Assembly: GCA_030614915.1 (NCBI GenBank)
Contig: JAUXAG010000012.1
Span: 27,632-91,631, forward strand
Direction of reading: 5' to 3'
From: Actinomycetes bacterium
Lineage (GTDB): Bacteria > Planctomycetota > Phycisphaerae > JAACET01
Length of the DNA stretch: 64,000 nt
Shown here: positions 5,459 through 62,633 of the stretch, one piece after another
Numbering within the stretch: the stretch's first letter is position 1
Layout of the letters: every line of letters begins with the position of its first letter
Notes under the pieces: generated by a model
What the model saw: only the letters and a program-made list of their open reading frames with translations
Databases searched by the model: none
Told to the model about the DNA's origin: nothing
Program-made: the position numbers and the translations under genes

Positions 5459-5652
5459 TAGCGGGGGCCAGATATGGGGACCTGGAGATACCAAAAAGCT
5501 TCAAATGATGTCGTTTTTGTCGGTTGACAGCGGGGCGGAAATTACCTAACCTTTTGGCACATAAACAGATAGGGCATGTCGGGTTGTAAGACCCCGACAC
5601 GGTCCCTCTTGTGGGTCTGCGGTTGGAATTGACATCCCCAAACCCGCCCGGG
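5459..5652 (+). repeat. R1 dispersed repeat, full copy A
   Basis: This ~194-base sequence starts at 'tagcgggggccagatatgg' and ends at 'ccccaaacccgcccggg'. It is nearly collinear with copies at 14624 and 43651. It holds a conserved hairpin TGTCGGG-N9-CCCGACA (5577-5599) and a second, overlapping pairing between aagaccc and gggtct. There is no conserved reading frame. Here it lies just upstream of an integrase-type transposase remnant. Confidence 0.85.
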
Positions 5653-5769
5653 GCAGAAGGTTTTTTTGGGCCTTTTTGGCGGTGGTCCAAAATGTCGGGC
5701 TGGTGTAAATACTGGACTTATAGCGGGTGCATAGGAGGCGTAATCGATGCTGCCGAGATGGTTGACAGC

Positions 5770-6069
5770 CCTGTTCGGACTCCCTACCAAGCACCCATCG
5801 CAAATTCATTCGTTGAGTCGTGGATCGGCAGCCTAAAGCGTGAGTGTCTGAACACTTTCTTTTGTTTCAGTCTTAGACAACTGGATCACATCGTTCAGAC
5901 CTACGCCTCGTACCACAACCAATATCGGCCTCATCAGGGCCTGGGCAATAGGCCGCTGGGGGTTCCCGAAAACCCGTTACGGCAGACGAGAGAGATCGAT
6001 GCGGGACTGATTCGATGCAAGCATTGGCTCGGTGGGATGCTTAAGCATTACTACCGTCAAGCCGCGTGA
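5770..6069 (+). pseudogene. Integrase-core (rve) transposase, C-terminal remnant
   Basis: The end of ORF 5611..6069 reads VRTPYQAPIANSFVESWIG, LKRECLN, HNQYRPHQGLGNRPLG and LGGMLKHYYRQAA. That is the C-terminal part of a retroviral-integrase-type DDE transposase, including the last catalytic region (SFVESWIGSLKREC) and the RPHQGLGN motif. The N-terminal DNA-binding part and the first two acidic residues are missing. A near-identical tail occurs at 25594-25818 and a shorter one at 57948-58010. It is inactive by truncation. Confidence 0.8.
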
Positions 6070-11564: not shown

Positions 11565-11843
11565 CTACTTCGGCGTATCTTCTAGAATAACACCTTCATC
11601 GGCCATCTTCTTCATGAATTTTTTGGGATCAGCCTCGAAGGCCATTTTGCAGCCGCTGCAACAGAAGTACACGCGTTTGCCTTTGTAATCCTCATATATG
11701 TCTTTGTCGATAGGATCAGCCATGACCGGACAGGTTTTCTGGGTGATAGCCTCCTCTTCACCTTCACCAGAGCCACAGCCAGTCAGAACAAAGGCCATAG
11801 ACACAGCCAAACACAGACATCCCACAAACAGTACCGTTCTCAT
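11565..11843 (-). CDS. Small YHS-type metal-binding lipoprotein
   Basis: This 92-residue protein has an AAGGAGGG ribosome site and a lipobox VLTGC (Cys23). The rest is a YHS-like domain: TCPVMADPIDKDIYEDYKGK followed by VYFCCSGCKMAFEADPKKF. These cysteines (C38, C61, C62, C65) and Met41 resemble the metal sites of YHS/TRASH domains in copper systems. It lies between the TolC-like and CusB-like genes, in line with a role as an extracytoplasmic metal carrier or sensor for the efflux complex. No enzymatic residues are seen. Confidence 0.82.
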   Translation of the reverse strand: MRTVLFVGCLCLAVSMAFVLTGCGSGEGEEEAITQKTCPVMADPIDKDIYEDYKGKRVYFCCSGCKMAFEADPKKFMKKMADEGVILEDTPK

Positions 11844-11909
11844 AATCGCCCTCCTTTCTGCAGCCGACTAGCCGGCTGCCAATTAAGTGACTGCCCCTAT
11901 TATAGGCAG

Positions 11910-13331
11910 CTATTTGGCCTCGGGCTCGTCTTTTTCTTGATTTGACCTCCGCGGCAGTTCTCGGCCAACGAGCATCTCCAATTGGGCTAAGCGCTGAGCG
12001 TTATTAGCCAGGGCACGCTCATATAACAACTGGAACTCCAGGAGCATTCGCTCGGCGTCGATCAGGTCCAGAAAACTGGCCTTGTCAGCCATGAACGCGG
12101 CTTGAGTAACTTTCAGAGATTGCTCAGCCTTGGGGATAAGGCTGTCCCGATAGAGATTAATCTTGCGCTGGGCGTCGCGGAACTCATAAAGGGCCAAGTG
12201 GACTTCGCTGGCAAGGGCGTTTTCAACACCTAGCCTTTCTTTGAGTGCAGCCAAGTAGCTGGCTCGGGCCCGGCGCTGGTTAGCTTGGTATTTATCATGC
12301 CAGATGGGCAGATTGACAGAGGCCATTACCACTACGGGGTCTTTGCCGCTGTCCGGCGTACCGGACATCAAGGCCTCGGCTGTGTCGATATAGTCCACTC
12401 CGAGTGTGATATCAGGAAAATAGTCTTTGCCGGCTAACTCGACGGCTTTCTTTTGTGCGGCGATTTGATAATCCAAGGCCTTCAGCTCAGGATTGGCTTC
12501 GCCCAGCCAAGTTAGAATCTGCTCATCGCTGGCCTCGATTTTTTCTTCCTGGGGTACTTCTGTGGGCCAGGGAAGTTCAGCCCCAGCCGGACGGTTCAGA
12601 GCAGCGTTGAGTTTGGCCATGATGGGACTGCGCAAGCCCTGGAGCGCTCGCAGGCGATCTTCCAGTTTGCCTTGCTCAACCTGAGCTCGGATTACATCCT
12701 GATGTCCAGCGGCAGCAACCTTGTACTTTGTGCGGACCACCTGCTCGATATAACGCATGAGCTCGACGTTTTCTTTGGTTACAGAAATGGCCCGGGCCAG
12801 GTAATAGTATTCGTAGTAGGCGTGCTTGACCTGGTAAAAAAGTTTCAGTTTTGCAGCCTCGAAGGCTTGCCCCTGGGCCTTGGCCTTTTCCAGGGCAATA
12901 TCTCCACTCGCTTGGAGCTTGCCGAACCAGGGGAAGGTTTGTGCCAAACCGAAGCTCTGCTGTTGAGGTCCTACACGAGTTTCAACCTCCTGGATGAAAT
13001 AGCGGTAAGTGAATCTAGGATCAGGTAATGTCCGGGCCGGGGCTACCGCTTCCAGAGCTGCCTTATAGCGACTAAAGGCCGCCTGTAGTTCAGGATTATG
13101 GGCAGCCGCATAAGCGAGACAGTTACTCAAACTCGGCTCTGCCGACAATTCATCCCCGGGACGTTTTTTAGTAGCAACTTCGATTGACCCGCTGTAGATT
13201 TGCTGCTGGATATGGTCGAATTCTCTAAATGCCTTGTGCTCTTCGCGGGGAGCGCAGCCGGCCATTATCAAAACCATCGCAGCAATCAGCCAAAAACATA
13301 CCTTTGTTCGCTTAGTCATTGGCTTGCCCAC
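11910..13331 (-). CDS. cusC: TolC/CusC-type outer-membrane efflux protein
   Basis: This 473-residue protein has the two repeats of the outer-membrane efflux protein family: long helical stretches such as CLAYAAAHNPELQAAFSRYKA near the start and NPELKALDYQIAAQKKAVEL in the second half, with GVDYID beta strands between. A lipobox LIMAGC near the N-terminus predicts lipidation as in CusC. The listed start is GTG at 13331; the ATG at 13319 (MTKRTK) is equally plausible, and neither has a strong ribosome site. It forms the channel for the adaptor and pump encoded downstream. It is 11 bases from the upstream DUF6775-like gene, so one transcript is likely. Confidence 0.88.
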   Translation of the reverse strand: MGKPMTKRTKVCFWLIAAMVLIMAGCAPREEHKAFREFDHIQQQIYSGSIEVATKKRPGDELSAEPSLSNCLAYAAAHNPELQAAFSRYKAALEAVAPARTLPDPRFTYRYFIQEVETRVGPQQQSFGLAQTFPWFGKLQASGDIALEKAKAQGQAFEAAKLKLFYQVKHAYYEYYYLARAISVTKENVELMRYIEQVVRTKYKVAAAGHQDVIRAQVEQGKLEDRLRALQGLRSPIMAKLNAALNRPAGAELPWPTEVPQEEKIEASDEQILTWLGEANPELKALDYQIAAQKKAVELAGKDYFPDITLGVDYIDTAEALMSGTPDSGKDPVVVMASVNLPIWHDKYQANQRRARASYLAALKERLGVENALASEVHLALYEFRDAQRKINLYRDSLIPKAEQSLKVTQAAFMADKASFLDLIDAERMLLEFQLLYERALANNAQRLAQLEMLVGRELPRRSNQEKDEPEAK

Positions 13332-13342
13332 CCGAAAGGATT

Positions 13343-14158
13343 CTATTTATCCGCCAATTCTCTCACAAGTTTCTGATGTCTGTGGCAAAACTCCGCCCCT
13401 GTTCCAAGTTGAGCTCTGATCATCTGCTCCTGCCAGTGGGCGTTGAACAGTCGGCAGTCCGGATTATCGCAAAACGGCTCGCCAATTAGATGATATAAAA
13501 CCGCCTGCATGATATAACCTTTGAGCAGCTCTGTCAAGCGTGGATCGCTATAGTCCACAAAGCGTCCAGCCAGTTCTTCCTGAAGATCTTTCTCGTCCAA
13601 ACCAGCCATCAAGCCGAAGTAATATTCTCGCGGTTTAGCTGGACCTTCCACAATTCCGGTAGTGCTGATAATACTCGGCCAACCATATATGCTCACCCGA
13701 GCATGATATCGCCGATCGCTCTGATCCCAGGTGCCTATCAGTCGATTGGTAAAGACAATGTGCACAAATTCCAGCGAAGTTTCCTCGCCGACAAGCAACT
13801 CAAGATAGGTTTGCTGCAAGGCCAATCCATCATAGAAAACTTCCCTGTTTACACCACCTTCCAGTAGCCACTTGCGCTCTTGAGCCAACTGCTGGGGATT
13901 GGGCTCACGCTTTTCTAATGGTTTCGCCGGGTCTTCGATGCGGGTCTTGCAAATATCCCTAGCCCTGGACTCAAGCGTGTGTTCGCCCATCCGTCCGTGG
14001 GGGCGAAGATGGTGTCGGACGAATTCAGGTCTAATCTGTACACGGTCTGGCCCGAACCACTGCCCCAGATATTCGCCGATTCGGCAAACATCAAAGTTCT
14101 CGACGCCTGCTCCATCGTAGAGGCAGATAAGACGCAGATTCTGTGGGATAGACTTCAT
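13343..14158 (-). CDS. DUF6775-like putative metallopeptidase
   Basis: This 271-residue soluble protein appears to be the first gene of the efflux transcript. I recognise a likeness to the DUF6775 'putative metallopeptidase' family: central SIISTTGIVEGPAKPREYYF, then GRFVDYSDPRLTELLKGY, and a Cys-rich end FCDNPDCRLFNAHWQEQ with FCHRH. The CDNPDCRLFNAHW/C-x-x-H layout recalls the zinc-binding C-terminus of archaemetzincins, but I see no clear HExxH. This name rests on memory of the family and is less certain than its neighbours. It lies 11 bases upstream of the TolC-like gene. A role in metal-stress proteolysis is only inference. No strong ribosome site precedes the ATG. Confidence 0.6.
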   Translation of the reverse strand: MKSIPQNLRLICLYDGAGVENFDVCRIGEYLGQWFGPDRVQIRPEFVRHHLRPHGRMGEHTLESRARDICKTRIEDPAKPLEKREPNPQQLAQERKWLLEGGVNREVFYDGLALQQTYLELLVGEETSLEFVHIVFTNRLIGTWDQSDRRYHARVSIYGWPSIISTTGIVEGPAKPREYYFGLMAGLDEKDLQEELAGRFVDYSDPRLTELLKGYIMQAVLYHLIGEPFCDNPDCRLFNAHWQEQMIRAQLGTGAEFCHRHQKLVRELADK

Positions 14159-15584: not shown

Positions 15585-16784
15585 ATGGAAGAGCCTAAAA
15601 TATCAATAGTTAGCGATGGAACCACCACGTGGAGAACCCGATTGGCGGATGCTGAATTAACAAATCCAGCAACGATGGCATTACGTGAGCGGGTGAAAGA
15701 GCTGACCTGTCTTTATGGCATCGCCCAGATTGCTGCACGGCCAAGTGCATCGCGGGAAGAAATTATACAAGGCATTGTTGAGCTTCTTCCCCCTGCCTGG
15801 CAGTATCCTAAAATAACGTTCGCTCGAATTACTTTAGACGGCGTTTCTTATATAACGCCGGGTTTTCGCGAAGGCTGCCAAAAACAGACTGCGGATATTG
15901 TTGTCAGCGGTGAACCAAAAGGTGTTATCGAGATAGTCTATGCGGAGGAAAGCCCCGAATTTGATGAAGGCCCTTTCCTTAAAGAAGAACGAAACCTCAT
16001 TGACGGCGTAGCCAGACAGGTCGCATTGATTGTCGAACGAAAACAAGTGGAAGAGGACAAATTGAAGTTGCACAACCAGCTGCTGCACGCTGACCGGTTG
16101 GCTACCATCGGGATGTTTGCTGCGGGCGTAGCTCACGAGCTAAACGAGCCGCTGGGAAATATTCTGGGATTCGCCCAGTTGGCGAAGAAATATCCCGCAG
16201 TTCCTGCAACAGCCAAACAGGACATCGAAAAGATCGAGGCCGCTTCTTTGCAGGCTCGGGAGATTATCCAGAAGCTTCTGGTTTTTGCTCGACAAATGCC
16301 GCCTGAAGAAACGCGAGTCAATCTTAATCAAGTGGTGAAAGACGGGCTCTATTTCTTTGAAGCCAGATGTGCCAAGGCTGGAATTGAACTTGTACGGTTG
16401 CTTGCGCCAGATCTGCCGGAAATCACAGCCGACCCAGCCCAGTTGAATCAGGTGCTGGTGAATTTGGTTGCCAACGCCCTACAATCGATGACCGGTGCAG
16501 GGAAGATTACGATTCAAACAAAGTTTTGCGACCACCATGTCTTCCTAATTGTAGAAGATACCGGTGCCGGTATGAGTAAGGAAGTTCTTGAAGAAATATT
16601 TGTTCCATTCTTCACAACGAAGGATGTTGGTCAGGGGACAGGCTTGGGTTTACCTGTGGTTCACGGGATTGTCACTGCACACGGCGGCTCGATTGACATC
16701 AAGAGCAAAATCGGCCGGGGTACACACTTTGAAATCCAGCTGCCTATATGCAGGGAGCCGCAGGAGATGGAAGGAAGCGCTTAA
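15585..16784 (+). CDS. Soluble sensor histidine kinase (NtrB/AtoS-like)
   Basis: This 399-residue protein has no transmembrane segment. Residues 30-150 resemble a small GAF-like sensory domain (ALRERVKELTCLYGIAQIAA ... LKEERNLIDGVARQVALIVE), followed by a short coiled coil. The HisKA phospho-acceptor is His184 in AHELNEPLGNILGF. The HATPase domain has the N box (LNQVLVNLVANALQS), G1 (VEDTGAGM) and G2 (GTGLGLPVVHGI). It ends 1 base before the response-regulator ATG, so it is the cognate kinase of the sigma-54 activator. The cue is probably cytoplasmic (redox or metabolite), but the GAF-like domain has no obvious cysteine or haem site. The ribosome site before the ATG is weak. Confidence 0.9.
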   Translation: MEEPKISIVSDGTTTWRTRLADAELTNPATMALRERVKELTCLYGIAQIAARPSASREEIIQGIVELLPPAWQYPKITFARITLDGVSYITPGFREGCQKQTADIVVSGEPKGVIEIVYAEESPEFDEGPFLKEERNLIDGVARQVALIVERKQVEEDKLKLHNQLLHADRLATIGMFAAGVAHELNEPLGNILGFAQLAKKYPAVPATAKQDIEKIEAASLQAREIIQKLLVFARQMPPEETRVNLNQVVKDGLYFFEARCAKAGIELVRLLAPDLPEITADPAQLNQVLVNLVANALQSMTGAGKITIQTKFCDHHVFLIVEDTGAGMSKEVLEEIFVPFFTTKDVGQGTGLGLPVVHGIVTAHGGSIDIKSKIGRGTHFEIQLPICREPQEMEGSA

Positions 16785-16785
16785 T

Positions 16786-18138
16786 ATGTCGTCTACGGCT
16801 AAGAGGGAACGCATTTTGATTGTAGATGATTCGCCAGATACACTGGAAGTGCTCCAGCGAAATCTGACGGCGGAGCGATACGATGTTTTCACAGCATCTG
16901 GTGTAGCTGAAGCAATTGAAATCCTTAACGGGACGGCATTGGATTTGGTTATTACAGACCTCAAGATGCCCAAGGTCAGCGGTTTAGATTTAGTGCGACA
17001 TATCAGGGAAAACTTCAAAAATACCGAGGTAATGATGATTACCGGTTATCCTTCGATTGAGGGGGCCGTCGAAGCGGTTAAAAGCGGCGCCGAAGAGTTT
17101 CTACCCAAACCCTTCACCGACACAGAACTTTTATCTGCTGTTGGGCGTATCTTGGACAAAGCGAGGCTTCGCAAATTCGGGGATGCCACACCAAACCAGC
17201 TACCTCCCGTGCATAAAGGTCTTATCGGTACTTCGGAAGCAATAAACAAGGTTGCCATCGCTATAGGCAAAGCTTCGTCTACTTCGGCCACCGTGCTCAT
17301 TACAGGTGAAAGCGGTACGGGCAAGGAACTTGCAGCCAGGGCTATCCACTATGGCAGCACGCGGTCATCTTCGCCGTTTGTGCCTGTAAATTGCGGTGGT
17401 ATTCCGGAAGGTCTGCTTGAAAGCGAATTGTTCGGACACGTCAAAGGTGCGTTCACAGGAGCAACCGAGTCCAGGGCAGGGTTCTTTCACACTGCTGATG
17501 GAGGTACGATCTTTCTCGATGAAATCAGTGAGATGAGCCTGTCCATGCAGGTCAAGCTTCTTCGCGTCCTTCAGGATAAACAGATTTGCATGGTCGGTTC
17601 CGACCGAATACGAAAAGTGGATGTGAGAATTCTGGCTGCAACAAACAAAGATTTGCACGATTCAGTGAAAAAGGGGCTTTTTCGCGAAGATCTGTTTTAT
17701 CGCCTCAATGTTATTACGATAGTTATCCCGCCATTGAGAGAAAGAGGAGATGATATCATATTATTGGCACATCATTTTGCGACCAGGTTTGCAGCCGAAT
17801 CGGGTAGATCACCGCTTCGCTTTTCCGATAAGGCCCTGCAAAGTCTTCGCAGCTATAACTGGCCTGGCAATGTGAGAGAACTGGAAAACGTGATTCAGCG
17901 TCTCGTGGTAATGACTGACGGTGATATTATAGATGTTCCTGATTTGCCGGAACTTTGCCGTTTCTCTGCCCTTCGAAAGACAGGTTTTACCAGAACTCTT
18001 GCTGAAGTAGAGGCCGAGTATATAAGTAATGTTCTGGCGGAGGTGGACGGCAACAAAACCCGGGCAGCAGAAATTCTCGGTATCGACCGCAAGACCCTGC
18101 GTGAAAAGCTTAGAAAGGCAAAACAGTCCTCATCCTGA
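16786..18138 (+). CDS. NtrC-family sigma-54 response regulator
   Basis: 450 residues from the ATG at 16786, which has GGAAGG upstream and follows the kinase stop by 1 base; the ORF-track start at 16588 lies inside the kinase gene and is rejected. It has a receiver domain with D14/D15 and phospho-acceptor Asp58 ([12 protein letters not shown]). The AAA+ domain has Walker A GESGTGKE (~174-181), the sigma-54-contact loop GAFTGA (221-226), Walker [10 protein letters not shown] and an arginine finger [12 protein letters not shown] Fis-type helix-turn-helix ([20 protein letters not shown]) ends it. A near-consensus sigma-54 promoter lies about 210 bases downstream, in front of the redox gene cluster, so that operon is the likely target. 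Confidence 0.94.
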
Positions 18139-18350: not shown

Positions 18351-18367
18351 TGGTACGGTTATTGCTT
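18351..18367 (+). promoter_or_regulatory. Sigma-54 (-24/-12) promoter of the redox operon
   Basis: TGGTACGGTTATTGCTT matches the TGGCACG-N4-TTGCW consensus with one change, and has GG and GC separated by exactly 10 bases. It lies about 42 bases upstream of the first ATG of the operon (18409) and just after the gene for a sigma-54 activator. The AT-rich stretch 18200-18260 (aataaacttag ... caagttattt, an imperfect inverted repeat) could hold the activator site. The rest of 18139-18408 has no gene. Confidence 0.85.
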
Positions 18368-18408: not shown

Positions 18409-18705
18409 ATGTCAGAAAATAATATGAGATATCGTGGTATATGCTTCACGTGCAAAAATGCTCCAGGCTGCACTTTCCCAAGAGATTCCCAGAAACCTAT
18501 GCTACACTGCGAGGAGTTTGAAGTTGACACATGTCCTTCGGTAAAGACCACAGGAAAAGACAAGTCACCGGCAACTACTTCAGTTGATGCTGAGGACAAG
18601 GATTCAGGCAAATTCATTGGGATATGCAGCAATTGCGATAATCGCAGAACCTGCGTCTTCCCAAAGTCTGAAGGTGGCATTTGGCATTGCGAGGAGTATC
18701 AATAG
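18409..18705 (+). CDS. Small double Cys-motif protein, first gene of the redox operon
   Basis: This 98-residue protein has a TAAGGAG ribosome site. It consists of two copies of one pattern: GICFTCKNAPGCTFP...LHCEEFE and GICSNCDNRRTCVFP...WHCEEYQ, i.e. Cx2C-x4/5-C-xFP-x~11-HCEE[FY]. Each unit offers four cysteines and a histidine for a zinc or FeS site. A hydrophilic linker with VKTTGKDKSPATTS joins them. I do not know a biochemical function. Similar short Cys-rich proteins are, as far as I recall, found next to NuoEF-type hydrogenase or formate dehydrogenase genes. It ends 1 base before the NuoE-like ATG, so it belongs to the operon. Confidence 0.75.
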   Translation: MSENNMRYRGICFTCKNAPGCTFPRDSQKPMLHCEEFEVDTCPSVKTTGKDKSPATTSVDAEDKDSGKFIGICSNCDNRRTCVFPKSEGGIWHCEEYQ

Positions 18706-18706
18706 A

Positions 18707-19597
18707 ATGGAACAAAACGCTGCTATCTCGAGCAAAGACAATATCTGTGCGGAAGGCAAGGTAGAGTCGAAAGACATCTTAAGAATTCTGGAAAGTCATA
18801 ATAAGGACAGGGGCGGGCTTATTTCTATTCTTGAAGAGATCCAATCTGAGTATGGCTATCTTCCTGAAGAGGCGCTTAGAATAGTGAGCGAACGAACGGG
18901 TCGCAGCCTGGTTGATATATATGGTGTAGCAACGTTTTACAGATTTTTTAGTCTGCAGGCTAAAGGCAAACACCTTATTTGTGCATGTCTTGGCACAGCC
19001 TGCCATGTTCGTGGAGCACCGAGGATAGTAGCAGAACTTGAGCAGCAACTTACTATAAAAGCAGGTCAGACAACCCCAGATAAGGAATTTACACTGGAAA
19101 CGGTAAATTGCCTGGGCGCCTGTGCCCTTGGGCCGGTGGTTGTTATTGATGGCCATTACTTTTCAAAGGTCAGAAAATCAAAAGTCAAACAACTTCTGGA
19201 GCAGGCAGGCGAAGGATTTGACAAATTCGACATAGGAAAGGATGAACGGATATTCCCTATCGAGGTAAGTTGTCCCCACTGTAACCATAGTTTCAAGGAT
19301 AAGACTTTTGCCATCGACGGCTACCCCTGTCTCAAGATAAATGTTGCTACAGATCACCAGCAGGGTTGGATAAGACTGTCGTGTTTATATGGTAGTTACA
19401 GTGTTTCTACGGAGTTTGAAATCCCCGAAGGTATGGTTGTTAATTTTATTTGTCCGCATTGTAATTCAGAAATCCACAGCACGTCGGATTGTTCACAATG
19501 CGGGGCACCAATGATACCGATGCTTGTTGATGGTGGTGGTATAGTTAGTATTTGTACCCGCCGTGGGTGTAAAAACCATATGTTGGATTTGGTTTAG
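18707..19597 (+). CDS. NuoE/HydC-like [2Fe-2S] subunit with C-terminal zinc-ribbon domain
   Basis: 296 residues from the ATG at 18707, 1 base after the previous stop; the ORF-track start at 18584 overlaps that gene in another frame. Residues 20-165 are a NuoE-type domain: a helical part (ILEEIQSEYGYLPEEALRIV, IYGVATFYRFF) and a thioredoxin-like fold with Cys94/Cys99 (CLGTAC) and Cys135/Cys139 (CLGAC) for one [2Fe-2S] cluster. Residues ~185-296 are an addition not found in NuoE: CPHCNHSF, CLYGSY, ICPHCNSE, CSQCGAP and CTRRGCKNHM, suggesting one or two zinc ribbons. In HydABC- and NuoEF-type complexes this subunit passes electrons to or from the FMN subunit. The next gene encodes that subunit. 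Confidence 0.88.
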   Translation: MEQNAAISSKDNICAEGKVESKDILRILESHNKDRGGLISILEEIQSEYGYLPEEALRIVSERTGRSLVDIYGVATFYRFFSLQAKGKHLICACLGTACHVRGAPRIVAELEQQLTIKAGQTTPDKEFTLETVNCLGACALGPVVVIDGHYFSKVRKSKVKQLLEQAGEGFDKFDIGKDERIFPIEVSCPHCNHSFKDKTFAIDGYPCLKINVATDHQQGWIRLSCLYGSYSVSTEFEIPEGMVVNFICPHCNSEIHSTSDCSQCGAPMIPMLVDGGGIVSICTRRGCKNHMLDLV

Positions 19598-19615: not shown

Positions 19616-22600
19616 ATGCTAAGGTTATCTTCTATAAATGAGTTGAAAGAATTACGGAGCGTACTTTTTAACAACGCCGATGAAAATAAACCACGCATAG
19701 TCATTTGTGCGGGAACAGCTTGTCACGCAAGTGGCTCAAACGGCATAATTCGGGTAGTTAAGAAGCACATTATTGAAAAACACCTGGTGGGAACAGTGTC
19801 GCTTCGAATTACCGGATGCCATGGGTTCTGTGAAATGGGACCTTTTATTCTCACTGAACCGCAGCAGGCATTTTACATACAGGTAAAATTCGGTGATGTC
19901 CCACGAATTATCGAGGCGATGCTTTCGGACAAATACGTCGAAGACCTATTGTATCAGAATCCTCATACAGGCGAGAAGTACTACAACCGTGACGATATTC
20001 CCTTCTTCAAGAATCAACAGCGCAGCATCTTGGGGCTCAATCAGAAGATAGACCCAATCAGGATATACAACTATATCGCTCAGGAAGGTTACAGTGCTCT
20101 GGAGCAAGTATTATCGAAGCAAAACGCCGAGTGGGTAGTGCAACAGGTTAAACGTTCAGGGTTGCGTGGCCGCGGCGGCGGTGGATTTCCAACAGGCTTG
20201 AAATGGGAACTGCTGGCAAAACAACCCGACAGTCGTGGTAAGTTTCTCGTGTGCAACGCTGATGAAGGTGATCCTGGTGCCTATATGGACCGCAGCGTAC
20301 TTGAGGGCAATCCGCACAGCATTATCGAAGGAATGATTATTGGTGCTCACGGTACAGGAGCAACCGAAGGAATAGTTTATGTTCGCAATGAATATCCTCT
20401 TGCGGTTAAGCATTTAAATATTGCCCTGAAGCAGGCACATGAACTTGGTCTTTTGGGCCAGGATATACTCGGAACCGGTTTTTCATTTGATATCAAAGTT
20501 GTCAAAGGTGCCGGAGCATTTGTATGCGGCGAAGAAACGGCACTGATACGGTCCATCGAGGGGAAAATGGGTGAACCTCGTCAACGCCCGCCGTTCCCTA
20601 TACAAAAAGGTATTGACGGTAAACCAACCGCTATCAACAACGTTGAAACCTGGGCGAACATCCCCTTGATCTTCAGGTTAGGAGCCGAGGAATTCGGAAA
20701 GGTCGGGACTAAGAATAACTCAGGCACCAAAATATTCAGCTTGGTCGGAAAAATCAGGAATACCGGCCTTGTCGAAGTACCCATGGGTACCACTATCAAG
20801 GAAATTGTTTACGGCATTGGCGGTGGTCCCGTTGGAAAGGCCAAAATAAAGGCGGTACAGACAGGCGGCCCATCCGGGGGGTGCATTCCTGCCGATATGT
20901 TTGATTTGCCGGTCGATTACGACAGCTTAACCGCCGCGGGGTCAATCATGGGCTCGGGCGGCATGATTGTTATGGATGAAAATACCTGTATGGTAGATAT
21001 CGCTAAATACTTCATGAATTTCCTCAAAAATGAATCCTGCGGCAAATGTTTTACCTGCCGAAAGGGCACGCAGCGGATGTACGAAATCCTCGACGACATC
21101 TCAAAAGGTAAGGTGTCGCTCGACCATTTAGACCTTCTGAAAGAATTAGCGGAGGTGGTCAAGGATACCACGATGTGCGGCCTTGGACAGACGGCGTCGA
21201 ATCCTGTTTTGACTACCCTTCGCTACTTTCGTGGTGAATACCAGCGGCATATGGTTGATAAAAAGTGTGATGCTTTCGTGTGCAAAGATCTGGTGGGTGC
21301 GCCCTGCCAAGCCGGTTGCCCCCTGGACACCGAGGTTTGGCGTTATGTTGGGCTGATTGAAAAGGGCGAATACGAAGAAGCCTACAAAGTTATCAGACAA
21401 GCCAACCCGTTCCCATCGGTCTGCGCTCGGGTTTGTGGTCGCAAGTGCGAAACCAGATGCAACCTTGCAGCCAGCGGGGGCGAAGCTATTGCGATTCGAG
21501 CCTTGAAAAGGTTTATAACCGATAGAATTGATCCGGCGGTCTATAAGTCTGTAAGCACCGTCAGGGACATTAAAAATATCAGCAGAGTAGCAATCATAGG
21601 CGCGGGGCCTGCCGGTCTATCGGCTGCCCACCATCTTTCGTTACTTGGCCATAAAGTGACGCTAATTGAAGCCGAGGATGAGCCTGGTGGAATGCTTACT
21701 AGTTGTATACCAGATTATCGTCTCGGTCGGGATGTGGCACACAAAGAAATAGAATCACTGCTTGACGAAAACATCACCCTCAGATGCGGAACAAAGCTGG
21801 GTCGCGACGTAACTATCGACGGGTTACTTGAAGATGGATTCAAAACGGTTTTCCTTGCGATAGGAGCAGATAAAAGCTGGCAATTGGGCCTGGAGGGAGA
21901 AGACACCGGAGGAGTTTACTCATCAATGGAATTCCTCAAAGCCTTCAATTTAAGAGGCCAGGAGTTGGCCAAAGGACGCGTAGGTATCATTGGTGGTGGC
22001 AACTCGGCTGTGGACGCCGCAAGAGTGGCTATCCGTCAGAAAAAAGTCAAAAGTGTAACCCTGCTCTACCGCCGTACCTCCCAGGAGATGCCTGCTTACG
22101 CCGAAGAAATCGAAGCAGCTCTTGAGGAGGGTATAAGGCTTGAAACATTGGTCTCGCCAACAAGTATACGTTACATTGAAGCTGCTGAAGCTGAGGGGGT
22201 AAAAGTCGAAACATTCGTCGAGCCCGTGAAAATAGATTCAGCCAATGGACGGTTAGCTGACATTAAATGCATTAGAAACAAGCTGGGCGACTTTGACTCA
22301 AGCGGACGACGCAGGCCGGTCCCAATTGCTGGTACCGAGTTCACGATTCCATTGGACACCATGATAGTAGCCATCGGCGAGCGTCCGGATAGCGATTGTC
22401 TCGTTTCTATGGGATTGGAAGTTGATAAGAGCGGCAGGATGAAGGTCGATGCCAAAACCCTTCGTACTAACCGTAAAGGCGTATTTGCCGGTGGAGATCT
22501 GGTCACAGGTCCCAATACGGTTGTTGATGCCATAGCGGCGGGAAAGAAAGCAGCAGAGGTAATAGACCGTTATCTTCGCGGCGAAGAACTCGCTAAGCCA

Positions 22601-22858
22601 CCCGAAGTAAAATTACCCGAGTTCTTCATAGAACCTGCTGTCGTCGGCGATGAGGAAGACGAAGAAGTGACAAGAGCCGAACCCGCCACGCTGCCGGCCA
22701 AATCGAGGAAAAAGAGCTTTGCGGAAGTAGAGTTACCTCTGTCTGTCGAGCAGGCAAAACGTGAGGCCAGAAGGTGCCTGAGGTGTGATCTTGAGTTTAC
22801 GCAATGTAAAGAAGATGAACAGGCAAAATGTACAGCAGCGCAGGAAAAGTCAGCATGA
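19616..22858 (+). CDS. NuoF-GltD fusion: NADH-FMN subunit joined to NAD(P)H-FAD oxidoreductase
   Basis: 1080 residues. Residues 25-100: thioredoxin-like [2Fe-2S] domain (CAGTACHASG, GCHGFCEMGP). Residues ~145-540: NuoF/HydB core with GLRGRGGGGFPTGLKW and CNADEGDPGAYMDR (FMN), GAGAFVCGEETAL (NADH) and the [4Fe-4S] motif ESCGKCFTCRKGT...MCGLGQ. From ~545 the chain continues as a GltD/NfnB-like unit: GAPCQAGCPLD and CARVCGRKCETRC (two [4Fe-4S] sites), FAD site IIGAGPAGLSAAHHL, NAD(P) site IIGGGNSAVDAARVA and a closing VFAGGDLVTGPNTVVDAI. HydB normally ends in a ferredoxin domain; here that place is taken by GltD. The acidic tail ends with ARRCLRCD. Two nucleotide sites in one chain fit a transhydrogenase or bifurcating role (inference). 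Confidence 0.92.
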   Translation: MLRLSSINELKELRSVLFNNADENKPRIVICAGTACHASGSNGIIRVVKKHIIEKHLVGTVSLRITGCHGFCEMGPFILTEPQQAFYIQVKFGDVPRIIEAMLSDKYVEDLLYQNPHTGEKYYNRDDIPFFKNQQRSILGLNQKIDPIRIYNYIAQEGYSALEQVLSKQNAEWVVQQVKRSGLRGRGGGGFPTGLKWELLAKQPDSRGKFLVCNADEGDPGAYMDRSVLEGNPHSIIEGMIIGAHGTGATEGIVYVRNEYPLAVKHLNIALKQAHELGLLGQDILGTGFSFDIKVVKGAGAFVCGEETALIRSIEGKMGEPRQRPPFPIQKGIDGKPTAINNVETWANIPLIFRLGAEEFGKVGTKNNSGTKIFSLVGKIRNTGLVEVPMGTTIKEIVYGIGGGPVGKAKIKAVQTGGPSGGCIPADMFDLPVDYDSLTAAGSIMGSGGMIVMDENTCMVDIAKYFMNFLKNESCGKCFTCRKGTQRMYEILDDISKGKVSLDHLDLLKELAEVVKDTTMCGLGQTASNPVLTTLRYFRGEYQRHMVDKKCDAFVCKDLVGAPCQAGCPLDTEVWRYVGLIEKGEYEEAYKVIRQANPFPSVCARVCGRKCETRCNLAASGGEAIAIRALKRFITDRIDPAVYKSVSTVRDIKNISRVAIIGAGPAGLSAAHHLSLLGHKVTLIEAEDEPGGMLTSCIPDYRLGRDVAHKEIESLLDENITLRCGTKLGRDVTIDGLLEDGFKTVFLAIGADKSWQLGLEGEDTGGVYSSMEFLKAFNLRGQELAKGRVGIIGGGNSAVDAARVAIRQKKVKSVTLLYRRTSQEMPAYAEEIEAALEEGIRLETLVSPTSIRYIEAAEAEGVKVETFVEPVKIDSANGRLADIKCIRNKLGDFDSSGRRRPVPIAGTEFTIPLDTMIVAIGERPDSDCLVSMGLEVDKSGRMKVDAKTLRTNRKGVFAGGDLVTGPNTVVDAIAAGKKAAEVIDRYLRGEELAKPPEVKLPEFFIEPAVVGDEEDEEVTRAEPATLPAKSRKKSFAEVELPLSVEQAKREARRCLRCDLEFTQCKEDEQAKCTAAQEKSA

Positions 22859-23532
22859 TTAATTTGAAGATAAATGGCTTGAACGTTTCAGTCGAAAAAG
22901 GCACTACCCTGTTGGAAGCTGCAAAATTTCTTGGGTTTCCAATTCCTACACTGTGCCATATGGATGGGCTTTCTCCTTATGGCGCCTGTCGGCTTTGTGT
23001 GGTAGAGATTGGTGAGGATTCAAACGCAAAACTGGTTTCCTCATGTATCTATCCAGCCGAAGAAGGATTAAAGGTACGCACCGCATCAACGAGGGTACTA
23101 AAGGCACGTAAAATGATTCTGGAACTGCTGCTGGCTTCCTGTCCGCAATCCAAAACGATTCAGGATGTTGCGTCTGCACATGGTATTCGTCAACAGCGTT
23201 TCAAACAGGAATATGAAGATTGCATCCTTTGCGGCCTGTGTGTTCGAATGTGCGAAGAACAAATGATGGCCAAGGCTATCGGTTTTAGAGGACGCGGTGA
23301 GAATAGAAGCATCGGCACACCGTTTGATATCAAGTCTGACGTTTGCAGGCTGTGCGGGGGTTGTATGTATGTGTGCCCAGCCTGTCAGCTTCGCTGCACG
23401 TACAATGAGCCGGAAAAAGCAATCTGTGGTGGTTGTGCAAATCTGGCACCGCCCTGTGTCGAGAAAGAAGAATTTGATGATATGATGTGCTACATGAATC
23501 CTTGTGTAGCTTGTGAGATAAAGAAAGATTGA
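22855..23532 (+). CDS. [2Fe-2S]/[4Fe-4S] iron-sulfur adaptor (NuoG/HydA N-terminus-like, no H-cluster)
   Basis: 225 residues from the ATG at 22855, which overlaps the previous stop as ATGA; the ORF-track start lies inside the upstream gene. Plant-type [2Fe-2S] domain with Cys34, Cys45, Cys48 and Cys64 (PTLCHMDGLSPYGACRLC). Then CILCGLCVRMC (Cys123-133) and CRLCGGCMYVCPAC, two clostridial-ferredoxin-like [4Fe-4S] sites, and a further CGGCANLAPPC plus Cys-rich tail. This equals the electron-wire N-terminus of HydA or NuoG, but the chain ends before any hydrogenase (TSCCPxW etc.) or molybdopterin domain. It is therefore likely a wire between the NuoF-GltD fusion and the GltB-like protein or soluble ferredoxin. 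Confidence 0.88.
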   Translation: MINLKINGLNVSVEKGTTLLEAAKFLGFPIPTLCHMDGLSPYGACRLCVVEIGEDSNAKLVSSCIYPAEEGLKVRTASTRVLKARKMILELLLASCPQSKTIQDVASAHGIRQQRFKQEYEDCILCGLCVRMCEEQMMAKAIGFRGRGENRSIGTPFDIKSDVCRLCGGCMYVCPACQLRCTYNEPEKAICGGCANLAPPCVEKEEFDDMMCYMNPCVACEIKKD

Positions 23533-23561: not shown

Positions 23562-25151
23562 ATGTCACGTACGTTTTCAAAAATAAACGCTTCAGCGGCA
23601 ACTCTGACAAAGAATAGAACGGAAGATTCAGTTGTGCCCGCGTCGGGTATGTGTGTTACCTGCGTGGATGGCTGCGTCGGTATGTGTGAGATCGGCAAAT
23701 CGGCCTACAGAGGCCACGAAGTCATTTATCCGCAGCCTTTTGGAATGGTTACTACTGCCGCCGAAAAGAGTTATCCGGTTGATTATTCACACTTCAACAT
23801 TATGGGCACTGCTGTGGGCGCACACGGCATTGAACCCGACAGCGACAAAGCCATTTTCCCCGCGGTAAATCTAGAAGTCATTTTTGGGCAAAATAATGGG
23901 ATAAAGTATCGTTATCCCTGGCATATTCCGGGAATTGGTTCCACAAACATCGCAAAGAATAATTGGGAAGGCCTGGCCATCGGTTCTGCCCTGGCTGGAA
24001 CCGGCTTGACTATCGGCGAGAACGTTGTAGGAATGGACCCCGAGGTGATTATCAAGAACGGCCGAGTGGTTGATACCGTTGACCTTAAACGCCGTGTCAA
24101 ACTCTATAAAGACTATCAACGTGACGGCTACGGTGCAATCATTGTACAGGCAAACGTCGAGGATACCAGGCTGGGCGTACAGGAATATGCAATCGAAAAG
24201 CTCGGAGTCGAGTGTGTGGAACTCAAGTGGGGCCAGGGTGCCAAGGATATCGGCGGAGAGGTGAAAATCCAGAACCTCAAAAAGGCTCAAATGTTATATA
24301 AGCGGGGGTATGTGGTGCTTCCGAATCCCACTGACCCGGATGTAATCAAAGCTTTTGAAAAAGGTGCATTCAAGGAATTTGAGAGACATTCTCGAGTGGG
24401 AATGGTATCCGAAGAGTCATTTGCGAAAAGGGTAGAAGAGTTGCGAAAGGCCGGTGCCAAGTACATCTTTCTCAAAACAGGAGCCTATCGGCCGGCGGAT
24501 TTGGCAAGGGCAATAGTATTTGCTTCTCGCTATAAAATCGACCTTCTGACCGTTGATGGTGCCGGCGGTGGTACGGGCATGAGTCCCTGGCGGATGATGA
24601 ACGAGTGGGGCATACCTCCTGTCGAATTACATTCACTTCTATATCAATATGCCAAACGCCTTGCTGACAAAGGTGCGTATATTCCGACATTGGCTTTGGC
24701 CGGTGGATTCACCTTCGAAGATCAAATCTTCAAAGGTCTTGCACTTGGTTCTCCATTTGTAAAGTTGATAGGAATGGCCAGAGGCCCCATTGCGGCAGCT
24801 ATGGTAGGTAAAACGATAGGCCGCACGATGGAAGAGCAGCAGATACCAGTGTACATTGAGAGATTCGGAAATACTAAGGATGAAATTTTCGTAACCGCAA
24901 GCACACTGCGTAAGGAACTGGGTGATAAGGAATTCGAGAAACTTCCGACCGGCGCCTTGGGGCTTTACACCTATTACGAACGTCTTGCCCAAGGCCTGCG
25001 CCAACTAATGGCAGGCAGCCGGAAGTTTGCTATAGAACATATTACAAGAGACGATATAGCAGCTTTGACACACCAGGCAGCAAACATTAGTGGGATTAAA
25101 TATGTAATGGATGTGGATCAAGGAAAGGCTGAAAGAATTCTCAATAGCTAA
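23562..25151 (+). CDS. GltB-like FMN-binding protein (glutamate synthase-related), no glutaminase domain
   Basis: This 529-residue protein has AAGGAG upstream of the ATG. The central and C-terminal part is a GOGAT-type FMN barrel: VELKWGQGAKDIGGEVK, FLKTGAYRPADLARAIVFA, TVDGAGGGTGMSPWRMM, LALAGGFTFEDQIFKGLALG. The usual N-terminal glutaminase and the C-terminal glucan-like domain of GltB are absent, and the CxxxxxC..NxC 3Fe-4S motif expected after the barrel is not found. Instead residues 31-42 read CVTCVDGCVGMC, four cysteines that could hold a cluster near the FMN. So this is not a normal glutamate synthase. As the last gene of the operon it may supply the substrate-specific site; ammonia-dependent glutamate formation or an unrelated reduction are both open. 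Confidence 0.88.
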   Translation: MSRTFSKINASAATLTKNRTEDSVVPASGMCVTCVDGCVGMCEIGKSAYRGHEVIYPQPFGMVTTAAEKSYPVDYSHFNIMGTAVGAHGIEPDSDKAIFPAVNLEVIFGQNNGIKYRYPWHIPGIGSTNIAKNNWEGLAIGSALAGTGLTIGENVVGMDPEVIIKNGRVVDTVDLKRRVKLYKDYQRDGYGAIIVQANVEDTRLGVQEYAIEKLGVECVELKWGQGAKDIGGEVKIQNLKKAQMLYKRGYVVLPNPTDPDVIKAFEKGAFKEFERHSRVGMVSEESFAKRVEELRKAGAKYIFLKTGAYRPADLARAIVFASRYKIDLLTVDGAGGGTGMSPWRMMNEWGIPPVELHSLLYQYAKRLADKGAYIPTLALAGGFTFEDQIFKGLALGSPFVKLIGMARGPIAAAMVGKTIGRTMEEQQIPVYIERFGNTKDEIFVTASTLRKELGDKEFEKLPTGALGLYTYYERLAQGLRQLMAGSRKFAIEHITRDDIAALTHQAANISGIKYVMDVDQGKAERILNS

Positions 25152-25159
25152 AATCAGAT

Positions 25160-26030
25160 TGTAATTTGGTGGTGTGCTGGTCCAGCGATTCTTGCGCTTG
25201 TTTGGTTTCTGCTTAACTACTTGTTCGTAAATAGATTATCATCCTTGCCTTCGAAATCTGCTCGATGATTGTCTCGGAGGCATAAGATGCTGCCATTGTC
25301 GTGTTCGTCAGACATAGTCATCCCAAAAAGTTGGCCTAAGAACATCAAGTCCAGGGTACTGCACGTCATCTCTTTGGCCCATTACGCCATTACCTACGCC
25401 CGAGGATGGGCAGCAAACAGGTGCTTATGCCATCAATTGTTGGTGCTAACCGCGTAACCTCTTGCAAACAAAGCTATTAGCTGTATAATCTTGCGATGCA
25501 AGGTGTAAGCTGCCAAATTCTAAATGTAACCTCTTGCGGATCAGACGGTTACACTCGAGTCACCAACAGTTAGCGACAGAAGCACCGCGCGAGTGTCTGA
25601 ACACTTGCTTTTGTTTTAGCCTCAGACAACTGGATCATATCGTCCAGACATATGCATCGTACCACAACCAATACCGACCACATCAGGGGCTAGGCAATAG
25701 ACCGCTGGGGGTGCTCGAAGACCCATTGTGGCAGATGGGAGAGATGGATGTGGGACAGATTCGATGCCAGTACTGGCTCGGTGGGCTGCTTAAGCATTAC
25801 TACCGTCAAGCCGCGTGATGCATCTCGCAAGAGTGCCAAACATCCGGGACGGGGCATAACAGATTCATGCGGGATGGATTGCTGTTGCTTTGGCTGTCTT
25901 TCAGCCATATCATGAGGAGCAGTCTTTGATGTGGTGTTGATCAAGCACAAGCACCGCTCAACCGCTTAGTTTCCCACAGACTCTCGGAGGGAACGACATT
26001 TTGGCCCGTCTCTCGGCGTGGCCCACGTCA
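25160..26030 (+). mobile_element. Internally deleted integrase-type IS (R2 left end plus common right end)
   Basis: 25165-25300 is the R2 flank in reverse orientation to the copies at 15 kb and 59 kb (complement of the caccacac, gattttc and tacctccgag blocks). A transposase N-terminus and then a C-terminus follow on the same strand, then the right-end flank shared with 6070-6290 (ttgctttggctgtctttcag, ggaacgacattttggccc). Left end, start, end and right end in correct order with the middle missing mark one decayed element of about 870 bases. gtaacctcttgc occurs twice (25455, 25520s) at the internal scar. No functional gene lies between 25152 and 26066. Confidence 0.7.
25287..25818 (+). pseudogene. 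Transposase remnant: N-terminus and C-terminus in different frames
   Basis: 25287-25457 encodes MLPLSCSSDIVIPKSWPKN, then KSRVLHVISLAHYAITYARGW, which I recall as the start of a planctomycetal integrase-core transposase family. 25594-25818 encodes ECLNTCFCFSLRQLDH...NQYRPHQGLGNRPLG...LGGLLKHYYRQAA, its end, nearly identical to 5850-6069. About 135 unrelated bases and a frame change separate them, and the catalytic domain is lost. It cannot be active. Confidence 0.72.
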
Positions 26031-27718: not shown

Positions 27719-28618
27719 ATGAGTCACAAAGAAAAACTATCGGGAGTATTTCCGCCATTTATGACACCGTTTGGAGAAGAGGGGGAAGTATCGTACAGTA
27801 AATTGGCTGAAAACATTGAGAAATACAACGAGACGGACTTGCGAGGCTATATGCCGCTGGGAAGCAATGGCGAGTTCATGAGCCTTACTGAAGAAGAGTC
27901 TTTGAAGATAATTGATGTGTTCAAGGAAAAAAAGGCTGCTGATAAAACTATTATAGCTGGTGCCGGCAGGGAATCTGCTAATGCAACATTGGATTTTATA
28001 AACAAAATAGCAGATAAGGATGTAGATTACGCGACTTTGTTGCCGCCGCACTATTTTGTCGGTGCGATGACGGATGATGTGTTGATTAAGTTTTACACAG
28101 CAGTTGCAGACAAATCGCCTATTCCTATTATGATTTATAATGCACCAAAGTTTGCATCCGGTCTTTTGATATCTGCAAATGTTATTTCTGCCTTGGCGGC
28201 GCATCCTAATATCGCGGGCATGAAAGATACGTCCAAGGAAGATATTTCAATGTATGTTGAGGCCGTTCCTGATGGAGCAGATTTTTGTGTTCTTGCCGGC
28301 ACCATCAGCAAATTCTATAAATCACTTCTGGCAGGTGCTGTTGGAGGAGTTTTGTCAATGGCTAATTATTTGCCCGATATGTGTTGCCAACTGTATGAGA
28401 TTTATTTGTCCGGCGACACGGAAAAAGGACAGAAAGAAGATGAATATGTTCGTTCGCTAAGCGCCCAGGCGGCGGGGAAATACGGTGTGGCGGGAGTAAA
28501 AGCTGCGATGGATTTACTTGGATATTTTGGCGGAGACCCGAGAATCCCATTGTCTCCTATAGATGCTCAGAGCAAGGCTGAGTTGAAGGCCGTCCTCGAA
28601 AAGGAGGGTTTGTTATGA
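27719..28618 (+). CDS. DapA-family lyase (dihydrodipicolinate synthase/KDG aldolase-like)
   Basis: This 299-residue protein has a strong AAGGAAGG ribosome site. It is a TIM-barrel class I aldolase family member: GVFPPFMTPFGEEGEV at the start, PLGSNGEFMSLTEEE (a G-S-x-G-E pyruvate-carboxylate loop), IMIYNAP (catalytic Tyr) and AGMKDTS (Schiff-base Lys). The GSNGE variant instead of GTTGE is common in lyases that are not lysine-biosynthetic, such as 2-keto-3-deoxy-sugar-acid or hydroxy-oxoglutarate aldolases. With KDG-type kinase and hydroxyacid dehydrogenase genes next to it, cleavage of a 2-keto-3-deoxy acid to pyruvate plus an aldehyde is the best guess. Confidence 0.88.
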   Translation: MSHKEKLSGVFPPFMTPFGEEGEVSYSKLAENIEKYNETDLRGYMPLGSNGEFMSLTEEESLKIIDVFKEKKAADKTIIAGAGRESANATLDFINKIADKDVDYATLLPPHYFVGAMTDDVLIKFYTAVADKSPIPIMIYNAPKFASGLLISANVISALAAHPNIAGMKDTSKEDISMYVEAVPDGADFCVLAGTISKFYKSLLAGAVGGVLSMANYLPDMCCQLYEIYLSGDTEKGQKEDEYVRSLSAQAAGKYGVAGVKAAMDLLGYFGGDPRIPLSPIDAQSKAELKAVLEKEGLL

Positions 28619-29571
28619 AAACAGTGCTCTTGCCACAAAAGATTTGCGATGAAGGACTGGACGTATTGAAGGGAAAGGTCGAAGTCATTATCGCCCCCGA
28701 CCCATCGCAGGAAACGCTGCTTAAAATGTGTGTTGATGCAGACGCAATTGTGTTAAGAACAACATCCAAAGTTACCGCTGAAGTGATCGATACCGCCAAA
28801 AACCTTAAAATCGTTTCGAGAACAGGGGCCGGCGTGGATAATGTGAACGTAGAAGCTGCTACGAAAAGAGGTATACTGGTTTGCAATCTTGTTGGCGTCA
28901 ATAGTTTATCGGTTTGTGAACATGCAATTTCGCTGATGATGGTGCTGGCCAAACAACTTCCATTTATGGACAAATCTGTGCGAGAGGGATTCTGGAAAGC
29001 AAGAAACGCCAATGTAACCGTGGAACTGGAAGGCAAAACACTTGGCATTATGGCCCTTGGAAACATCGGAGCCAGGGTTGCTAAAAAATGCCATGACGGA
29101 TTGGGAATGAAAATCTTAGCCTATGACCCTTATGCCAGGGATTTTTTCAAGGATTATGATTACGAATTTGTTGATAACCTGGAAGATCTGTTTAAGCGGT
29201 CTGATTTTATTTCAGTTCATTGTCCGAATCTGCCTGAGACAAAGGGTATGATTACAAGAGAATTGTTGTTTTCGATGAAGTCGGACGCCTACTTTATAAA
29301 TACCGCCAGAGGTGTAGTTGTTGACGAACAGGCTTTAATTGAGTTGCTCCGGGATAAACGGATAGCCGGTGCCGGCCTTGATGTATTTACCGCCGAACCG
29401 CCGGATAACGAACTGCTGAAAATGGACAATGTGACACTTTCGCCCCATGTTGCCGCACTGACCAGGGAAGCTACCATAAGAATGGCAACAGAAGCATGTC
29501 AGGCTGTCATAGATTTCTTCGATGAAAAACTGCCGAAAAGCATTTATAACAAGAAAGAGTTGAATTTGTAA
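28615..29571 (+). CDS. D-2-hydroxyacid dehydrogenase (phosphoglycerate dehydrogenase-like)
   Basis: 318 residues; the ATG overlaps the previous stop (ATGA) with GGAGG ahead of it. The NAD domain has GIMALGNIGARVA, where Ala replaces the first Gly of GxGxxG. The catalytic triad is visible: Arg in NTARGVVVDE, Glu in DVFTAEPP and His in LSPHVAALT. The length fits short SerA-like enzymes without the ACT domain. Family members reduce 2-keto acids to D-2-hydroxy acids. In this island it may act on a sugar-acid-derived keto acid (for example hydroxypyruvate or tartronate semialdehyde), which is inference. Confidence 0.88.
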   Translation: MKTVLLPQKICDEGLDVLKGKVEVIIAPDPSQETLLKMCVDADAIVLRTTSKVTAEVIDTAKNLKIVSRTGAGVDNVNVEAATKRGILVCNLVGVNSLSVCEHAISLMMVLAKQLPFMDKSVREGFWKARNANVTVELEGKTLGIMALGNIGARVAKKCHDGLGMKILAYDPYARDFFKDYDYEFVDNLEDLFKRSDFISVHCPNLPETKGMITRELLFSMKSDAYFINTARGVVVDEQALIELLRDKRIAGAGLDVFTAEPPDNELLKMDNVTLSPHVAALTREATIRMATEACQAVIDFFDEKLPKSIYNKKELNL

Positions 29572-62631: not shown

Positions 62632-62633
62632 CG

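Follow-up and report, generated by a model that had tools for sequence, protein, structure and literature searches.

A GltB-like FMN-barrel protein with an N-terminal Cys4 motif in a Bfu-like operon, with a possible role in nitrogen assimilation

The window, i.e. the whole 64,000-nucleotide stretch of DNA analyzed, contains an operon that looks like one for an electron-bifurcating complex of the Bfu (HydABC-type) class, in which a GltB-like FMN-barrel protein (23562..25151, + strand; 529 aa from an ATG start; delineated by Pfam, alignments, hhalign and AlphaFold models) takes the catalytic place. Sequence comparison shows the subunits, their conservation, the operon and the linkage to nitrogen genes. 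It is likely that this protein belongs to a Bfu-type complex, which would occur in many anaerobic bacteria. As to the reaction, our preferred reading, to which we assign a probability of roughly 0.4, is that a Bfu-type complex with a GltB-like FMN subunit uses NADH together with ferredoxin or NADP(H) to aminate a 2-oxo acid reductively, most likely 2-oxoglutarate to glutamate. The earlier note on this DNA, which described the FMN protein, had not taken in the conserved HydABC/Bfu-type operon, the adjacent sigma-54 two-component system, the wide family or the tie to nitrogen genes. Bfu complexes are modular, and the list of their third substrates is still growing. With a GltB-like version, found commonly in sulfate reducers, Planctomycetota and Zixibacteria, electron bifurcation would be tied to nitrogen assimilation, and a large family whose annotation so far consists of a weak glutamate-synthase match would gain a function. 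Such a link was not found in the searched literature, nor, supplementary files aside, was any description of an FMN-binding glutamate synthase with Bfu, NuoF or NrpR.

Homologs of BfuC, BfuB and BfuA are encoded together in the operon, and their best PDB matches are HydB/NfnB and HydA-type chains. BfuC (18707..19597, +, in a frame listed from 18584; PF01257, 2.8e-47) is NuoE/HydC-like and combines a [2Fe-2S] motif with a C-terminal Cys-rich extension. BfuB (19616..22858, +; domains from Pfam) is NuoF/HydB-like over residues 1-560, with NiFe-HydB 7t2r_B as its best PDB match (E 2e-204), and is fused to a GltD-like FAD/NADPH domain that brings in a Fer4_20 of its own. Its B2-cluster ligand motif H545-x5-C551-x4-C556 (21248..21283, +) corresponds to H525/C531/C536 of the published Bfu survey, where the ligand His is found in virtually all BfuB and is absent from non-bifurcating homologs (PMC9304861). 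All 71 BfuB sequences compared, fused or unfused, have the B2 ligands C458, H545, C551 and C556. BfuA (22855..23532, +, in a frame listed from 22828; PF13510, PF12838) is HoxU/NuoG-N-like, with [2Fe-2S] and 2x[4Fe-4S] motifs: 21 of its cysteines are conserved in 59-60 of 60 sequences, and the eight that lie in an extra C-terminal stretch are natural candidates for passing electrons to the Cys4 motif of the GltB-like protein.

The C-terminal 2x[4Fe-4S] ferredoxin domain of BfuB (B3/B4, IPR017896) is absent from the window protein, where GltD stands instead. We therefore speak of a Bfu-like operon in the window and of Bfu-type operons in its GltD-less relatives; in the window form ferredoxin-linked bifurcation is uncertain for the same reason. 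GltD-fused BfuB, in which GltD has a two-cluster domain of its own, occurs in 46 sampled loci, the window included, and about a third of the relatives are GltD-less: in the 25 sampled loci of this kind BfuB is ~616 aa long, and in nearly all 25 it has a C-terminal 2x[4Fe-4S] domain as in HydB. In the BfuB tree as in the GltB-like tree the two forms are intermingled, with ~15 changes in each and many weakly supported branches; the exchange of the ferredoxin domain for GltD in otherwise collinear operons appears to be a repeated one.

The BfuC-BfuB-BfuA-GltB-like arrangement recurs in most of the best 80 GTDB loci, which by record title come from Planctomycetota, Zixibacteria, KSB1, Calditrichota, Acidobacteria, Neomarinimicrobia, Coatesbacteria, Desulfobacterota, Bacteroidota and others. 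Conservation is highest for the GltB-like protein and BfuA (median identity to the window 83%, with 57% for BfuC, 69% for the NuoF part and 59% for GltD). A search for family members (E < 1e-20) found them in about 157 of the 297 Desulfobacterota genomes sampled and in some two dozen of 199 from Planctomycetota. In the family tree the window clade belongs to a group linked to Bfu, and the stand-alone clades fall outside that group. The many stand-alone paralogs, together with the failure of any characterized family to match the protein, would suit a diverged or pseudo-enzyme relative of GOGAT that has no specific partner and whose neighbors form an unrelated Bfu enzyme. We consider this very improbable: BfuA adjoins the GltB-like gene in nearly every window-type locus with flanking sequence, and an identity of 80-89% across phyla argues for a strong function within the complex. 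Some Planctomycetota paralogs (loci L118-L120) adjoin an iron-containing redox enzyme of the Haem_oxygenas_2 family, and one neighbor is IspH-like by inspection.

In the Bfu survey the BfuBC core carries the B1-B5 and C1 clusters, BfuA receives electrons from the third-substrate subunit, and 17 BfuB clades are left without a function; its main text (2022) mentions neither glutamate synthase nor GltB (PMC9304861). With Bfu Type 2/3 (Wor-Bfu, NiFe-Bfu 7t2r) the present systems share BfuC, a BfuB with the B1 and B2 ligands (and B3/B4 in GltD-less relatives), and a BfuA that takes its electrons from an additional catalytic subunit. They differ in that this subunit is GltB-like, a type unnamed in the main text of PMC9304861, in the GltD that replaces the ferredoxin domain of the window BfuB, and in that bifurcation is here something we infer. 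The Stn/Nfn-Bfu transhydrogenase (Sporomusa, T. sibiricus) likewise has a BfuBC core and a GltD-like NADPH module; however, GltD is there part of the BfuA-type subunit (StnC), whereas here BfuB carries it as a C-terminal fusion and there is a GltB-like subunit besides. A second Bfu-type locus in the window (61054-63881, - strand), whose upstream end lies toward the window edge, encodes a fusion of HoxU with GltD (525 aa) alongside a BfuB that has a C-terminal 2x[4Fe-4S] domain, and itself resembles Stn/Nfn-Bfu.

The sole Pfam match of the GltB-like protein is PF01645 (Glu_synthase; 53 bits against a cut-off of 20.4), which covers residues 281-402 only; the Pfam scan recovered no GATase, GXGXG or Fer4 domain and the NCBIfam scan returned zero matches. 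Its only cysteines are 31, 34, 38, 42 and 218. The first four constitute the motif CVTCVDGCVGMC (residues 31-42; 23652..23687, +), from which we infer a [4Fe-4S] ligand set. The conservation of this motif, seen both in 29 aligned relatives (identity as low as 42%) and in a larger set of 145, is well beyond chance: C31, C38 and C42 are invariant in the 145 relatives (down to ~42% identity) and C34 is present in 144 of them. The region equivalent to the 3Fe-4S cysteines of GltB reads MARGPIAAAMVGKTIG and has no cysteine in the window protein; in the 29 aligned relatives it likewise lacks cysteines, a few isolated ones outside any motif excepted. Thus, Pfam, motifs and the 29-row alignment bear out the earlier description of a GltB-type FMN barrel without amidotransferase or 3Fe-4S cysteines and with four cysteines at residues 31-42; no match to a characterized glutamate synthase class came up, and the four cysteines fit no NCBIfam or Pfam family. 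As far as the searched papers show, the family is uncharacterized.

Comparison of the family profile with short GltB-like proteins by hhalign gave a probability of 99.6% (E 2e-23); matches came with the short GltB set and the combined set, and the long set alone, in which one row was mis-cut, failed. Neither the protein nor the 29-row profile found GltS in a PDB sequence search, so that the likeness to GltS rests on profile-profile comparison and fold. With the FMN domain of NADPH-GltS/Fd-GltS (GltB) the protein shares the barrel, the QGAK-GG and GGTG-SP loops and the fold, whereas it lacks the glutaminase, GXGXG and 3Fe-4S Cys, and has the extra N-terminal Cys4 and a remodeled pocket. Like MgsC of N-methylglutamate synthase and archaeal split GltB2, it is a stand-alone GltB2-type protein predicted to work with other subunits; unlike these, it has neither MgsA (GATase) nor MgsB (GXGXG) partner genes in the window operon, nor the Fer4-type domain of archaeal GltB2. 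The putative F420-dependent glutamate synthases (PMC9012536) set a precedent for pairing GltB2-type proteins with other electron-input modules. The polypeptide alone cannot be a canonical GOGAT, but the earlier conclusion that glutamine-dependent synthesis is excluded was too strong: split GOGATs, one of them in the same genome, have separate amidotransferase and GltB polypeptides, so that ammonia may be supplied in trans. The operon itself encodes no amidotransferase or GXGXG partner.

Several GltB-type motifs are retained: GEN at 152-154 (GEGG in GltB), K222-x-x-QGAK at 225-228, GG at 231-232 and the glycine-rich loop DGAGGGTGMSP (residues 332-342; 24555..24587, +; Pfam and the alignment of 29). 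The counterpart of GltB QGAKPGxGGQ is KWGQGAKDIGGE (residues 222-233; 24225..24260, +; alignments), in which an invariant Glu, E233, replaces the Gln or His of GltB. The segment reading SPPPHHDIYS in GltB is occupied by R275-H276-S277-R278 (RHSR; 24384..24395, +), a putative family-specific pocket segment, and E233, L245, R275, H276 and R278 are all present in 145 of 145 aligned members. Thus, of the GOGAT-type substrate-loop motifs claimed earlier QGAK-GG stands, but the loop after it and the SPPPHHDIYS-type segment are remodeled. Since, besides, the arginine of GltB IAxxR has no clear counterpart, 2-oxoglutarate is only a putative substrate, and the earlier note was right to leave the true one open.

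Two AlphaFold models (pLDDT 79.8 and 83.9; pTM 0.85 and 0.88) match glutamate synthases (7mfm, 1ofd) and FMN 2-hydroxyacid oxidases alike, and fold alone does not, on these models, choose between the two. The top Foldseek match of the first model, the GltS-GDH complex 7mfm, was set aside as not specific because the better model puts flavocytochrome b2 first; a LutB/LldF match of one relative (E 6e-4) was taken as chance. It is possible, though we find it rather doubtful, that the same Bfu-type complex has another substrate at the GltB-like FMN, e.g. a different pair of 2-oxo acid and amino acid, or a 2-hydroxy acid such as lactate or glycolate that donates electrons for the reduction of NAD+ and ferredoxin. 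Such a substrate would agree with the second model, which fits GltS and flavocytochrome b2/glycolate oxidase equally well, with the invariant, family-specific Glu233 and R275/H276/R278, and with the sugar-acid genes that adjoin in the window (e.g. a hydroxyacid dehydrogenase, by inspection, at 28615-29571). Against it stand the GltB-type signatures QGAK-GG and GGTG-SP, the lack of recurrent lactate or glycolate genes among the clustered neighbors of window-type loci, and the linkage of the family to nitrogen genes.

This linkage is clearest for the paralog clades, whose stand-alone or semi-stand-alone members adjoin NrpR, the ammonium transporter (Amt), P-II, glutamine synthetase (GlnA), NadE, carbamoyl-phosphate synthase (CarA), split GOGAT and NtrBC-like pairs. 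With the gene list fixed after the first 20 paralog loci and only the second 20 counted as the test, nitrogen genes were found in 8 of the 20 fresh loci, compared with 2 of 40 control windows taken from the sampled genomes (one-sided Fisher p=0.0014, kinship among loci uncorrected). In the window clade only GDH recurs: it is near 13 of 80 loci (10 by a stricter criterion), at varied positions and with diverse sequences, the expectation being ~0.7 if two such genes per 3.5 Mb genome are assumed. A nitrogen role for the complex is moderately supported. The genome of the window also carries GS, two GDH and a split GOGAT (contig C12, locus L127), and the complex would thus be an addition to, not the sole route to, glutamate. 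Most genomes with the family, that of the window included, also have a canonical GOGAT, which counts against the preferred reading; in Desulfobacterota canonical PF01645 is present in 253 of 297 genomes. The idea that the family replaces canonical GOGAT was rejected, as about half of the 20 listed PF01645-less Desulfobacterota genomes carry it, near the base rate.

The usual co-occurrence with canonical GOGAT, the repeated adjacency to NrpR, P-II and NtrBC-like kinase/regulator pairs, and the stand-alone paralogs without adjacent electron-donor subunits would also be compatible with a regulatory or sensory flavoprotein, which would bind FMN and a nitrogen metabolite and adjust the Bfu module or the neighboring kinase without bulk catalysis. 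That this is the actual role seems to us improbable: the strict conservation of the putative redox Cys4, the FMN loops and the extra BfuA cysteines fits electron transfer, and within Bfu operons the GltB-like gene sits where the catalytic subunit is otherwise encoded.

Under the preferred reading, reductive amination, the GltB-like protein would be the FMN-bearing catalytic subunit of a soluble HydABC-like oxidoreductase. The FMN of BfuB would handle NADH, and the second partner would be ferredoxin in forms with a complete BfuB and NADP(H), via the fused GltD, in the window form. From BfuA, electrons would travel over the clusters of its extra C-terminal cysteines to a [4Fe-4S] cluster bound by Cys4 and on to the GltB-like FMN, where a 2-oxo acid, most likely 2-oxoglutarate, would be combined with ammonia to give glutamate, the ammonia not coming from a glutaminase domain of its own. 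Low-potential electrons might then pull ammonium into glutamate without ATP. The 2-oxoglutarate/glutamate couple, at about -0.12 V, has a much higher potential than the donors. Under cell conditions NADH is at about -280 mV and ferredoxin at about -500 mV (PMC9304861). Coupling would thus be energetically unneeded except for strongly downhill assimilation at low ammonium, and this surplus is a weakness as well as the interest of the mechanism. We think it unlikely that the fully specified version holds, namely a confurcating, ATP-independent ammonium assimilation from NADH and reduced ferredoxin (or NADPH) through the GltB-like FMN and a new CX2CX3CX3C cluster, serving anaerobes at low ammonium as a redox-powered alternative to GS/GOGAT.

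The operon runs from a histidine kinase through a sigma-54 regulator, a small Cys protein, BfuC, BfuB-GltD and BfuA to the GltB-like gene, which is last; strand, spacing and conservation suggest co-transcription. The sensor histidine kinase (15585..16784, +; HisKA and HATPase_c by Pfam) precedes the operon in roughly half of the 80 relatives, and the REC-AAA-Fis response regulator (16786..18138, +, open frame from 16588; Pfam/NCBIfam) has the same position in relatives; this pair would switch the operon. A -24/-12 promoter-like site found by pattern match, TGGTACGGTTATTGCT (18351..18366, +), is the one place in the window that matches TGGYACNNNNNTTGCW without a mismatch and agrees with the consensus at 10 of 11 positions, and upstream sites in relatives reach a best score of at least 10/11 in over half of 38 cases vs 1 of 60 shuffled 1-kb stretches.

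The small protein (18409..18705, +), in which a CxxC...CxFP...HCEE(Y/F) motif occurs twice and which has no Pfam or NCBIfam match, travels with the operon, being conserved in 46 of 80 loci, and is a candidate metal or redox sensor. Remnants of a transposase integrase core with near-identical ends lie at 5611-6069 and 25534-25818, the latter just downstream of the GltB-like gene. In several phyla a PPDK_N-domain protein is encoded downstream of the operon (e.g. 11636-13888 of locus L018; cluster c9), and its N-terminal part in some cases resembles the sensory region of the operon kinase.
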